53,340 nucleotides of DNA from Candidatus Methanoperedens sp. BLZ2 (GTDB lineage: Archaea > Halobacteriota > Methanosarcinia > Methanosarcinales > Methanoperedenaceae), in NCBI RefSeq assembly GCF_002487355.1, contig NZ_NTMG01000042.1:1-53340 (forward strand), given 5' to 3'. The translations under genes and the position numbers were made by a program. Within the stretch, counting starts at the first letter, position 1; every line of letters begins with the position of its first letter. Below are positions 49,258 through 53,340 of this stretch, in pieces. A model generated the notes under the pieces. The model was not told the DNA's origin. It did not search any database and was given only the letters and a program-made list of their open reading frames with translations.

Positions 49258-50265
49258 ATGCATGAATATGACGCAATAATTGCCGGGGCAAGTTTTGCTG
49301 GACTTGCGGCTGCCGATAGCCTGGAAGGGGATATACTTCTCATAGACAGGAAGGAAATCGGAACACGGCAGACTTCGGCGTGCGGGACTTTCACCTCAGT
49401 ATTAGAAGAGTCAGGATGCAAAAACTCGATAATGCAGGAATTTGACACACTTACGCTGCATATTCCTGATGAAAGAAAAGTTGAATTGATCGAGCCTATC
49501 AGTACATTTGATTATGAAAAATTCTGCAAAATAATAGGGCAGCGCTTAAAAGTGAAAACCCTGAAAGCATCTGTAAAAGGTGTTGCGGGAGATGTGGTTT
49601 TTACAGATTCGGGAAATTTCAGTTCACAATGTATTCTTGATTGTACGGGCTGGAGAGCAGTCCTTGCCAGTTCTCTCAGGCAGGATTATGTTGACAAAAG
49701 AAATCTTGCATTCGGCCTGGAATCAGAGGTGGATTATACGGATGACAGCTTACATTTGTTGGTTGATCCTGAAATTATCCAGCAGGGGGCAGCCTGGATT
49801 TTTCCGATAGGAAATAAATCCAGGATCGGAGTGGCAAGTTACGCAGGAAAAACCCAGATCCTGCCACAACTTCGCGGATTCACAAGAACACTTGGTCATG
49901 AAATTTCAAAAACCCATGGCGGTTATATTCCATTCGGCCTTCGTGAACCTGTGGTTGATAATCTATTCATGGTAGGAGATTCTGCGGGTATGGCGCCGCC
50001 AACGACAAGTGAAGGAATACGCCCCGCGATAAACTTCGGCAGGGAATGTGCAGGGATCGTCCAGGGTATAATAGATGGTGATAAAATGCTAAAAGATGGC
50101 CTTATTGAGTACAGGGATATTGTAAATAAGAGTAAGAACAGATACAAGTGGCTGCTTAATATGCAAGCGCCGCTTCTTGATAATATTGTACCCGGAACCA
50201 TCAAAAAGGCCGCATGCAGCAGTATATTTTCAAAAATATTTCAGAAAATGTATCTTGGGATTTGA
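49258..50265 (+). CDS. Geranylgeranyl-reductase-type FAD oxidoreductase
   Basis: 335 residues. The FAD Rossmann motif is A-I-I-A-G-A-S-F-A-G-L-A-A (6-18); the flavin-contact motif is L-F-M-V-G-D-S-A-G-M-A-P-P-T-T-S-E-G-I (about 236-254), diagnostic of geranylgeranyl reductase-like enzymes. C-S-x-C-G appears as A-C-G-T-F. It may saturate isoprenoid chains of lipids or quinones. The ATG is the 49258 one, with no clear ribosome site, so the transcript may be leaderless. Confidence 0.8.
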   Translation: MHEYDAIIAGASFAGLAAADSLEGDILLIDRKEIGTRQTSACGTFTSVLEESGCKNSIMQEFDTLTLHIPDERKVELIEPISTFDYEKFCKIIGQRLKVKTLKASVKGVAGDVVFTDSGNFSSQCILDCTGWRAVLASSLRQDYVDKRNLAFGLESEVDYTDDSLHLLVDPEIIQQGAAWIFPIGNKSRIGVASYAGKTQILPQLRGFTRTLGHEISKTHGGYIPFGLREPVVDNLFMVGDSAGMAPPTTSEGIRPAINFGRECAGIVQGIIDGDKMLKDGLIEYRDIVNKSKNRYKWLLNMQAPLLDNIVPGTIKKAACSSIFSKIFQKMYLGI

Positions 50266-50432
50266 TTCGTAGTGATATCGCAAAGATGATCAAAGAGAAT
50301 ACAAAGAAAGAAATTCCCTCAATCAATGTGTGTGGTTCGGAGATAATCTCTGGACACCAAGCTGCTATCATGGCTCTGTTGGCAGTGCTGGGATGTAGTA
50401 GAGAGGTATATCCAATCACACAATTTAGATGA
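50214..50432 (+). CDS. Short ORF of uncertain status
   Basis: 72 residues, overlapping the end of the flavoprotein gene by 52 bases in another frame. The latter part (N-V-C-G-S-E-I-I-S-G-H-Q-A-A-I-M-A-L-L) looks like real protein, and the codons after the flavoprotein stop could be a decayed gene joined to it. I cannot name a family. Confidence 0.3.
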   Translation: MQQYIFKNISENVSWDLIRSDIAKMIKENTKKEIPSINVCGSEIISGHQAAIMALLAVLGCSREVYPITQFR

Positions 50433-50630
50433 AAATAATAGGGAATAATTCTGAAATCGCTATATACAGGCCATGGACAATTTTTCCGGGGTATACCAGT
50501 GACTGCAACGCACGCTCGTTCTCGTGCATCCATTGGAATATCTTGAACAAAAATAATAATCGTGGTCGCTAAAATCGGGGCACGAATAAAACTACAAAGA
50601 ATAAAAGTAGAAATAAGGGGATATAGATAA

Positions 50631-50879
50631 TTGGAGTATATTCGTACTTCCATTTGCATCAAATTTCATAAGTTCTTACACTTAAAACCTAAGGGGGTTT
50701 TATTATTGGGTTCATACACCTGGCATACTTGTTTGAACGTACAAGATTTTGCAGCTACGTTTGGCTGCGATTTCCATGTTTTTCATCGGAAACCTCATAA
50801 TAACTCAGAATATATAGCAGCTGTTTATGTTAAAGAGAACATTCAAGATTTCGAGAAAATTTTTAGATACTCTTTTTAA
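50631..50879 (+). CDS. Short ORF of uncertain status
   Basis: 82 residues with a TTG start (another TTG at 50706 lies behind aaggggg). It has Cys/His-rich elements (H-T-C ... F-G-C-D-F-H-V-F-H). It lies between accessory-looking sequence and the 50930 gene. May be a fragment. Confidence 0.3.
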   Translation: MEYIRTSICIKFHKFLHLKPKGVLLLGSYTWHTCLNVQDFAATFGCDFHVFHRKPHNNSEYIAAVYVKENIQDFEKIFRYSF

Positions 50880-50929
50880 AGATATATACTCACATCGGAT
50901 GGAGCAATTTTTATGACAGATTCGTAATA

Positions 50930-51454
50930 GTGGAACCTATCTGGTATATAAAATCAGATGGGGATATTCTTGTTGATTGTGTTTGCATAGATGACATAAT
51001 TTACGATTTTAAAAAACCTTTTGGGAAAGTTGCAGCAGAAATAATAGACGAGGAAGCCAGAGAATTTATTGAGCAAGCTTTAATAATTGAAAAAAATTAC
51101 ATATTTCTATGCGATAATCCAATATTTTTTCCTTATAACCGTGTGGATAAATTTATTAATAGTCTTAAAGAAATTGATAATTTACAAGACATTGATGGAC
51201 TTATTCATTATCACATTGATGAGAAAGAATTGAACGAATATGATATCAGAACACTTCAACTTTATAGCAATGAAATTCGTAATTTAAGTAAAAATGAACA
51301 ATTAGGTTTGGTAATCTCTCAAAAAAATCCCCTAAGAAATTTCCAATTACTGGAACAAACAGAATTTATCAGTAATCTTTTTACTGAATTTAATAAGGGA
51401 GAAATTTCCATTACAGGAAAGCTATTTAATGAAAAGCTGGAATCCAAGATTTAA
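50930..51454 (+). CDS. Protein of unknown function, AT-rich
   Basis: 174 residues with a GTG start. Acidic, soluble, no membrane span. The N-terminus (W-Y-I-K-S-D-G-D-I-L-V-D) has a beta-hairpin look. Strong A/T bias like the following genes suggests the same acquired segment. No family recognised. The 211 bases after it hold an AT-rich promoter-like stretch. Confidence 0.5.
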   Translation: MEPIWYIKSDGDILVDCVCIDDIIYDFKKPFGKVAAEIIDEEAREFIEQALIIEKNYIFLCDNPIFFPYNRVDKFINSLKEIDNLQDIDGLIHYHIDEKELNEYDIRTLQLYSNEIRNLSKNEQLGLVISQKNPLRNFQLLEQTEFISNLFTEFNKGEISITGKLFNEKLESKI

Positions 51455-51665: not shown

Positions 51666-52964
51666 ATGCTAACGCCTGAAGAAGTTGCTGGAATATTACT
51701 TGATATTGGGGCAGTAAGCCTGAATCCTGCTAATCCATTCATGTATGCTTCTGGAATTCTAAGCCCAGTTTATATCGATTGCCGACTTCTTGGTTCATTT
51801 CCAAATGAAAGGAAATCAATAATAAACACACTTATTGAAAATATTAATAATTTTTGCGAGAAGATAGACGTAATCGTTGGTACAAGCTCATCATCAATTT
51901 TACTTGCTACTCATATTGCTCAATATCTTAAATTGCCCATGGCATATGTAAGAACTTCTGCAAAGTCCCATGGTAAGGAGAAGCAAATCGAGGGGATAGT
52001 AAAAGAAGGTAGCAATGCATTATTAATAAGTGATATCATGTCAACAGAACAGGATATTCCAATTAGCGTAAAAGCGATAAACAATAGTGGCGGGAAAGTG
52101 GTCTATTGTTTAACAATATTCAATAATAATTTGGGATATATCGAAAGATTCTTACAGAAAGAAAAAATTCCATTTTACAATCTTACATGTCTTAAGGTAT
52201 TGTTAGCCTATGCTTGGCAAAAAGGAAAAATATCGATAGATGAGAAAGCAATTGTCGAAGAATGGATGATTGATCCCGAAGATTGGGATAATGTGCGACG
52301 AGATCGCATAGTGCAAATGCTTGAAAAAAGCAAGAGAGAGATAGCGGAGATTCTGCTTAAAATAAAGTCTGTTACAATTAGTTCTAAAAGAATATACAAA
52401 TACTCTTCAGGTATACTCAGTCCGATTTATACGGATAATAGATTACTTATCTCTTATCCTGAAGAGTGGGAATATGTAATCAATTCGTTTGTAAATGTAA
52501 TCGTGAATGAAATAGGTATCCAAAATGTAGATGTTATAGGGGGAGTTGCCACTGCTGGAATCCCACATGCCGCTTACTTGGCAGAAAAACTTGGACTACC
52601 TATGGTATATATTAAATCCACCGCCGAGGAGTATGGAAAACACAGCAAGATAGAAGGTCATATAAATCAAGGCGAGAAGGTACTGCTAATTGAGGATCTG
52701 ATTAGCACAGGGAGCTCCGTAATCTCCGCAGCAAAAGTTTTGAAGGAAGCTGGAGCTAAAGTCGATTGGTGCTTGGCGATTTTTAATTATAGCTTGAAGA
52801 AATCAAAAATTGCTTTGGAGCAAGAAAATATAAAATTAATAACCCTTTCTGATTTATCAACTTTATTAGATGTAGCACTACATACAGCAGTCATTACACC
52901 AATTGAAAGAGACTTAGTGCTTGAATGGAAAAAAGATATGGAGAATGATGCAGAAAGTTTATAA
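51666..52964 (+). CDS. Tandem-fused orotate phosphoribosyltransferase-like protein with complementary degenerate halves
   Basis: 432 residues made of two OPRT units (about 1-205 and 215-425). Both start with a S-G-I-L-S-P-(V/I)-Y segment. The mobile catalytic loop is intact only in the N-half (R96, K100, H102 in A-K-S-H-G); in the C-half the matching residues are Glu321 and Tyr323 (A-E-E-Y-G). The PRPP loop is intact only in the C-half (E-D-L-I-S-T-G-S-S, 343-351); the N-half has S-D-I-M-S-T-E-Q-D (122-130). The C-half also keeps G-G-V-A-T-A-G. In OPRT dimers the loop of one subunit closes over the other's PRPP site, so this chain could form one composite active site. The peptide and radical SAM genes follow, making a role other than pyrimidine synthesis likely. 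Confidence 0.85.
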   Translation: MLTPEEVAGILLDIGAVSLNPANPFMYASGILSPVYIDCRLLGSFPNERKSIINTLIENINNFCEKIDVIVGTSSSSILLATHIAQYLKLPMAYVRTSAKSHGKEKQIEGIVKEGSNALLISDIMSTEQDIPISVKAINNSGGKVVYCLTIFNNNLGYIERFLQKEKIPFYNLTCLKVLLAYAWQKGKISIDEKAIVEEWMIDPEDWDNVRRDRIVQMLEKSKREIAEILLKIKSVTISSKRIYKYSSGILSPIYTDNRLLISYPEEWEYVINSFVNVIVNEIGIQNVDVIGGVATAGIPHAAYLAEKLGLPMVYIKSTAEEYGKHSKIEGHINQGEKVLLIEDLISTGSSVISAAKVLKEAGAKVDWCLAIFNYSLKKSKIALEQENIKLITLSDLSTLLDVALHTAVITPIERDLVLEWKKDMENDAESL

Positions 52965-53015
52965 ATGATTAATAAGCAATAATATTTAAGACAAGGAGGT
53001 TATGAGGTGAGACAT

Positions 53016-53153
53016 ATGGAAACCATAATAGAATATGATGAGTTCTATAAAATGAAAAAAGATATAAAAAAGGGAAAAATAGGTAAAGAAAAACAGGATT
53101 CTCAGATGGAATTTGAAGAATTTATTCTTTCTGGATGTAAATGTACCGGGTAG
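53016..53153 (+). CDS. 45-residue candidate RiPP precursor with C-terminal Cys-Lys-Cys
   Basis: From the ATG at 53016 (GTG at 53007, three codons longer, also fits the AAGGAGGT at 52993-53000). A Lys/Glu-rich leader-like part (1-30) is followed by M-E-F-E-E-F-I-L-S-G-C-K-C-T-G at the very C-terminus. The layout (charged leader, short core with two Cys, radical SAM gene next door) is that of ribosomally made, modified peptides. No known precursor family recognised. Confidence 0.6.
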   Translation: METIIEYDEFYKMKKDIKKGKIGKEKQDSQMEFEEFILSGCKCTG

Positions 53154-53160
53154 GGAAACC

Positions 53161-53340
53161 ATGAAATGGCCATATAGCGTGTTTATAGAATTGACCAATA
53201 AATGCAATTCCCATTGTTTGCATTGCAGAGAAAATAGCGGCAAGAACCTACAAGATGAATTATCTACAGAAGAAATTAAAACAATCTTAACAGGCTGTCC
53301 CAAATCCCACTTCAATGAAAAAATGACATTATTTTCAATT
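53161..53340 (+). CDS. Radical SAM enzyme, 5' part (window ends)
   Basis: 60 codons, no stop before the window end. The N-terminus runs S-V-F-I-E-L-T-N-K-C-N-S-H-C-L-H-C-R, with the CxxxCxxC cluster at Cys15, 19 and 22 and the L-T-N-K-C context of peptide-modifying (SPASM-type) radical SAM proteins. It starts 7 bases after the precursor stop. Whether a SPASM domain is present lies outside the window. Confidence 0.85.
   Translation, partial: MKWPYSVFIELTNKCNSHCLHCRENSGKNLQDELSTEEIKTILTGCPKSHFNEKMTLFSI

Follow-up and report, generated by a model that had tools for sequence, protein, structure and literature searches.

Can a phosphoribosyltransferase be the partner of a radical SAM enzyme in the modification of a peptide? 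This question is raised by the end of the window, a stretch of 53,340 nucleotides from Candidatus Methanoperedens sp. BLZ2 which is an entire contig (C63) of a near-complete genome in 85 contigs. The earlier note had read here three consecutive genes, for a tandem OPRT-like protein, a 45-codon peptide with a Cys-Lys-Cys tail and a radical SAM enzyme, and had seen in them a possible new RiPP-type system. The three frames and the gaps between them (51 bases from the PRTase gene to the small ORF and 7 bases from the small ORF to the radical SAM gene) were borne out. The radical SAM gene reaches the contig edge because the window is the whole of C63. Its frame does start at ATG 53161 and carries CxxxCxxC, but its own sequence ends at 53290 and not at 53340. 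Taken as a whole, the locus is probably best explained by a fused-dimer PyrE that is not a peptide-modifying partner, followed by a peptide/radical SAM branch that is split by an insertion sequence. The features of the locus are as follows.

51666 to 52301, plus strand: half 1 of the tandem OPRT, residues 1-212; VRTSAKSHGK loop kept (R96/K100/H102), PRPP motif decayed to SDIMSTE (S122-E128)
52302 to 52964, plus strand: half 2 of the tandem OPRT, residues 213-432; EDLISTG kept (E343-D344), with K317 in place of the loop R and E321 in place of the loop K
52993 to 53010, plus strand: Shine-Dalgarno-like sequence AAGGAGG and GAGGTGA ahead of the peptide ORF
53007 to 53153, plus strand: small ORF, candidate precursor peptide of 48 (GTG) or 45 (ATG 53016) codons, ending SGCKCTG
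53161 to 53290, plus strand: 5' part of the radical SAM/SPASM gene, about 43 codons, with CxxxCxxC; remainder on C30:84370-83411 (minus strand)
53287 to 53290, unstranded: TTAA, the target site duplicated by the insertion and present again on C30
53291 to 53340, unstranded: terminus of an IS1182-family element, transposase 3' side, inside the radical SAM gene; full element at C67:62641-64433

Upstream of these features the window holds broken-looking short frames (50214-50880) and an orphan 174-aa ORF (50930-51454), which are perhaps the edge of an acquired segment.

The 432-codon tandem ORF at 51666-52964 encodes a predicted orotate phosphoribosyltransferase, PyrE (EC 2.4.2.10). The protein scored 312 bits against the OPRT equivalog NF001729 (cut-off 245), in two matching stretches, and 209 bits against TIGR00336 (cut-off 106.8), and an OPRT match was found in each of its halves. 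Its solved relatives in the PDB are OPRTs. An AF2 model built from 13 sequences had a mean pLDDT of 86 and a pTM of 0.58, and it matched OPRT chains with a target-normalised TM of about 0.9 over the length of one half. With PyrE as defined by NF001729/TIGR00336 the protein shares the fold, the PRPP motif in half 2, the catalytic loop in half 1 and a pyrimidine-operon context, the last as seen for its tandem relative. It differs in having two domains per chain, from which loop and PRPP motif have been lost in a complementary way, so that one composite site is predicted and not two. Judged from sequence, the fused PyrE with its probable composite site would be a novel form of a well-known enzyme. 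No paper describing a tandem OPRT surfaced in the literature searched, and the viral and plasmid collections contained only single PyrE as relatives. An altered substrate, suggested by the change of K to Leu in the SGxKSP motif of both halves, was considered and rejected, as SGIL is found in single PyrEs of the DPANN-type order too. A defence-system reading was also rejected; no PADLOC family covers any tested protein, and the OPRT gave only weak partial matches to ShosT and PsyrT.

The alignment of the two halves indicates how such a site could be built. Half 1 keeps the loop with R96 and K100 and has lost the PRPP motif ED(L/V)xSTG, and half 2 keeps the motif (E343-G349) and has lost the loop. 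R96 and K100 of half 1 correspond to the catalytic loop Arg and Lys of E. coli, R99 and K103. The same pattern was observed in a second tandem protein, described below. In half 1 of both tandems the loop VR..(A/K)K.HGK is present and SDI..TE replaces EDL.STG; in half 2 of both, EDLISTG is present, the loop Arg has become K and the loop Lys has become E. R, K and the ED..TG motif are all kept in the single PyrEs that were aligned (11/11). In the published mechanism K103 of the OPRT loop acts in the site of the adjacent subunit and is essential (PMC10087573; PMC5430920). Since the OPRT active site pairs the PRPP site of one subunit with the loop of the other, the tandem protein probably makes a single composite active site. 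The halves may fold back on each other as an intramolecular pseudo-dimer, an arrangement which the pTM of 0.58 leaves open. The half-1 loop (R96, K100) would then close over the PRPP/orotate site of half 2 and give one active site, and this composite site would turn orotate and PRPP into OMP and PPi. That each half keeps only its own share of a two-subunit active site is directly testable by mutation.

The second tandem PyrE, of 437 residues and 46% identical, was found in a distant DPANN-type archaeon (G517). Among 371 genomes from the phylum to which a Woesearchaeota PyrE relative belongs, it was the one further tandem, and a further search of 353 genomes of the order of G517 gave a tandem at the cut-off used in G517 only. 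The locus there reads pyrD-pyrK-pyrC-(195-aa ORF)-tandem pyrE-pyrF, which was confirmed by NCBIfam, and this canonical pyrimidine operon has neither a radical SAM gene nor the peptide. The 195-aa ORF between pyrC and the tandem pyrE (L113:4015-4602) belongs to no family. In the tree both tandem halves stand apart from the PyrE of the genus itself and are placed with DPANN/bacterial-type PyrEs, and this placement fits lateral acquisition. Half 1 of the window protein and half 1 of the G517 protein group together with a support of 100/93; the second halves of the two tandems are not joined. In another family of the same order (f4; L010-L013) a DPANN/bacterial-type PyrE replaces the usual one of the order, and it has a separate position in the tree.

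A remnant of the native pyrE was found on C5 at about 107439-107635 (L090:3940-4136, minus strand), and this pseudogene carries two internal deletions and a frameshift. It lies in conserved synteny, after a dCMP-deaminase-like and a CdsA-like gene (both named by reading), at the place where a relative keeps pyrE. No other PyrE over the cut-off was found in this genome. The pyrF gene is intact and lies about 12 kb past the last gene of the run on C30 in which the radical SAM gene continues, and a better-scoring DHODH gene on C43 is likely the canonical pyrD. As pyrF is kept and the native pyrE has decayed, the pathway needs an OPRT, for which the tandem is the only candidate found, and it is probably the working PyrE of this genome. 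In a metagenome-type assembly the pyrE deletions could be assembly errors. The tandem pyrE would have been acquired from a DPANN/bacterial-type source, and it would then have displaced the native gene.

In this assembly an IS1182-family element lies within the radical SAM gene and divides it. The final 50 bases of the window begin with CAGGCTGTCCC at 53291. The same 50 bases stand at the ends of C75, C19, C60, C79, C67 and C38, and on C67 they belong to a full element some 1.8 kb long (62641-64433), of which they make up one end. The transposase of this element scored 432 bits against NF033551, the IS1182 family (cut-off 270), and the terminal repeats CAGGCTGTCCCAAA are present at both of its ends. 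In transposase score and terminal repeats it is alike to the family and it shows nothing notably different; several copies are at contig ends. The opposite end of the element was found at seven further places, including the end of C30, where the radical SAM protein continues. TTAA stands on both sides of the insertion, at 53287-53290 and on C30. When the frame is read across the insertion it gives a protein of 362 residues, which aligns with homologues over the junction with no gap of note. Because the element splits the radical SAM gene, the peptide/radical SAM branch is probably off in the assembled genome. The assembly is fragmented and of metagenome type, and some cells of the population may lack the insertion. 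The same element also ends contigs C32, C58, C51, C30, C14 and C39, and its copies at so many contig ends explain part of the fragmentation. An insertion sequence can go unnoticed in a frame that extends to the end of a contig, and a broken gene then looks intact.

The C30 part of the radical SAM protein supplies the rest of PF04055 and, at the C-terminus, a SPASM domain (PF13186), the domain for which a look beyond the window had been proposed. The best scores of the protein were 249 bits for AhbD (cut-off 500) and 246 bits for NirJ2, followed by peptide-acting families. When 393 genomes of the phylum were searched, it matched AhbD-like proteins best, with an identity of about 40%. With AhbD/NirJ (TIGR04545, TIGR04055) it has in common the radical SAM core, the SPASM-type C-terminal cysteines and this identity, but it is well below the equivalog cut-offs, it has the 45-codon ORF in front and heme genes are not adjacent. 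With PqqE, mycofactocin MftC and SkfB it has the domain architecture in common, as well as a short ORF immediately ahead of the gene, but here the scores are lower (about 100-151 bits) and there is neither a PqqD/RRE nor a homologous precursor. At the 29 homologue loci inspected, no small ORF with a comparable CxC was seen immediately ahead of the gene. The earlier note had held that homologues which never sit near the peptide or the PRTase would speak against its system; none was indeed found near such a peptide or PRTase, though none of them is a clear orthologue. In the viral and plasmid collections only generic radical SAM proteins were relatives of the C30 part. Two further loci were observed during these searches. 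In G692, a DPANN-type genome (L114:4561-6729, minus strand), two adjacent radical SAM/SPASM genes follow a 42-codon ORF ending CMVCWPDD, which has no similarity to the window peptide; a peptide system is possible there. In G739 (L136:3301-7854) a DegT-type aminotransferase gene and two U32-peptidase-like genes, as named by reading, flank a radical SAM/SPASM gene, and the group may be a small biosynthetic cluster.

The small ORF was confirmed as described, with 45 codons from ATG 53016 (or 48 from GTG 53007), the tail SGCKCTG and its end at 53153. Shine-Dalgarno-like sequence, AAGGAGG (52993-52999) and GAGGTGA (53004-53010), lies upstream of it. When the 196-base gap was shuffled 20,000 times at the dinucleotide level, an ORF of at least 45 codons arose in 1.7% of cases, and one together with a Shine-Dalgarno sequence in 0.075%. 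The CKC ORF of 45/48 codons exceeds chance. Searches of 31 genomes of the genus and of IMG/VR gave no homologue of the peptide, and the viral and plasmid collections contained no relative. A frame with no conserved counterpart had been named as evidence against the system; the peptide has none within these 31 genomes and IMG/VR, which is the extent to which that point stands.

On C30 the radical SAM gene is followed, on the same strand and with close spacing or overlap, by genes for a TRZ/ATZ amidohydrolase, a 338-aa protein, a 321-aa protein, a DHODH paralogue and an adenylosuccinate-lyase-like protein. The amidohydrolase scored 225 bits against Amidohydro_1. It is near the MTA/SAH/5'-deoxyadenosine deaminases, with a best score of 322 bits against an equivalog cut-off of 609, and it is below every such cut-off. 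The transporter or peptidase suggested for the region beyond the window did not appear; Pfam, NCBIfam and reading of the C30 genes gave no RRE/PqqD, peptidase or exporter. The two orphan proteins of 338 and 321 aa overlap in an operon-like way (L054:14085-16059, C30, minus strand), and the viral and plasmid collections contained no relative of either. The predicted C-terminal helices of the 321-aa protein resemble membrane spans. Its single-sequence model is poor (pLDDT 43); by eye the strand order recalls a PRTase, but profile comparison gave a probability below 1% for the orphan proteins as degenerate PRTases. In the 338-aa protein, residues ~8-120 match (37%, E ~1e-9) a segment inside large baseplate-J-like proteins in other genomes of the genus (L096, L098), perhaps a shared mobile module.

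Several readings of the run have to be weighed with these data. A RiPP system in which the CKC peptide is matured by the radical SAM enzyme and receives a phosphoribosyl or nucleotide group from the PRTase would agree with the gene order and short gaps, the SPASM domain, the Cys tail and an ORF above chance. It is nevertheless highly improbable, because the PRTase is a PyrE of canonical type, which in another genome occurs in a pyrimidine operon that lacks both the peptide and the radical SAM gene, the native pyrE has decayed, the searches gave no homologue of the peptide, the radical SAM gene is broken and an RRE or transporter was not seen in the reconstituted operon. A role of the PRTase as peptide modifier was rejected on the operon context of the tandem relative and the native pyrE decay. 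The idea of the PRTase as a RiPP partner is not supported, given these same two points and its score over the OPRT equivalog cut-off, and the phosphoribosylation or nucleotide attachment of the peptide that the earlier note had inferred gained no support. No paper pairing an OPRT with radical SAM peptides surfaced in the literature searched, and the link of the tandem PyrE with the peptide and the radical SAM gene is an adjacency in one genome only. Against the fused-dimer PyrE as the best explanation it can be said that PyrE and the DHODH paralogue flank the peptide and radical SAM genes in one close run, and such a run might be the mark of a dedicated pathway. That the whole run, from the fused OPRT to the DHODH paralogue, is one pathway to a peptide-derived metabolite bearing a pyrimidine or phosphoribosyl group, with the OPRT also serving UMP synthesis, is given very little credence.

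For the downstream genes taken by themselves, the peptide/radical SAM pairing is plausible from anatomy alone. They may form an independent unit, with a 5'-deoxyadenosine deaminase, that merely lies behind pyrE and makes a RiPP or a peptide-derived cofactor of the PqqA/MftA kind. This is a serious but somewhat less than even prospect, and it is compatible with the fused-dimer PyrE as it concerns the downstream genes only. The SPASM radical SAM gene with a precursor-sized ORF 7 bases upstream, the adjoining TRZ/ATZ deaminase of the MTA/SAH/5'-deoxyadenosine group and the distant radical SAM gene of G692, which is also behind a small Cys-tailed ORF, all argue for it. The nearest curated families are, however, the AhbD/NirJ heme enzymes, all with scores well below cut-offs, and a second example of the peptide was not found, the G692 ORF being without similarity. 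Rather tentatively, the peptide may be the substrate of the radical SAM enzyme in such a unit, and the deaminase could dispose of 5'-deoxyadenosine. The same AhbD (249 bits) and NirJ2 (246 bits) scores, with about 40% identity to AhbD-like proteins, would suit a tetrapyrrole-modifying paralogue of AhbD/NirJ, with the small ORF a non-precursor accessory or no gene at all. This is rather unlikely, since the scores are far below the 500-bit equivalog cut-offs, a separate AhbD-like gene is present on C29 and no heme genes adjoin the radical SAM gene in the C30 run.

Returning to the fused-dimer PyrE, the presence of the tandem and the loss of the native pyrE suggest that a core metabolic gene has been displaced in this archaeon. 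If true, the composite site would be a clean natural example of the passage from a homodimer to a one-site pseudo-heterodimer.
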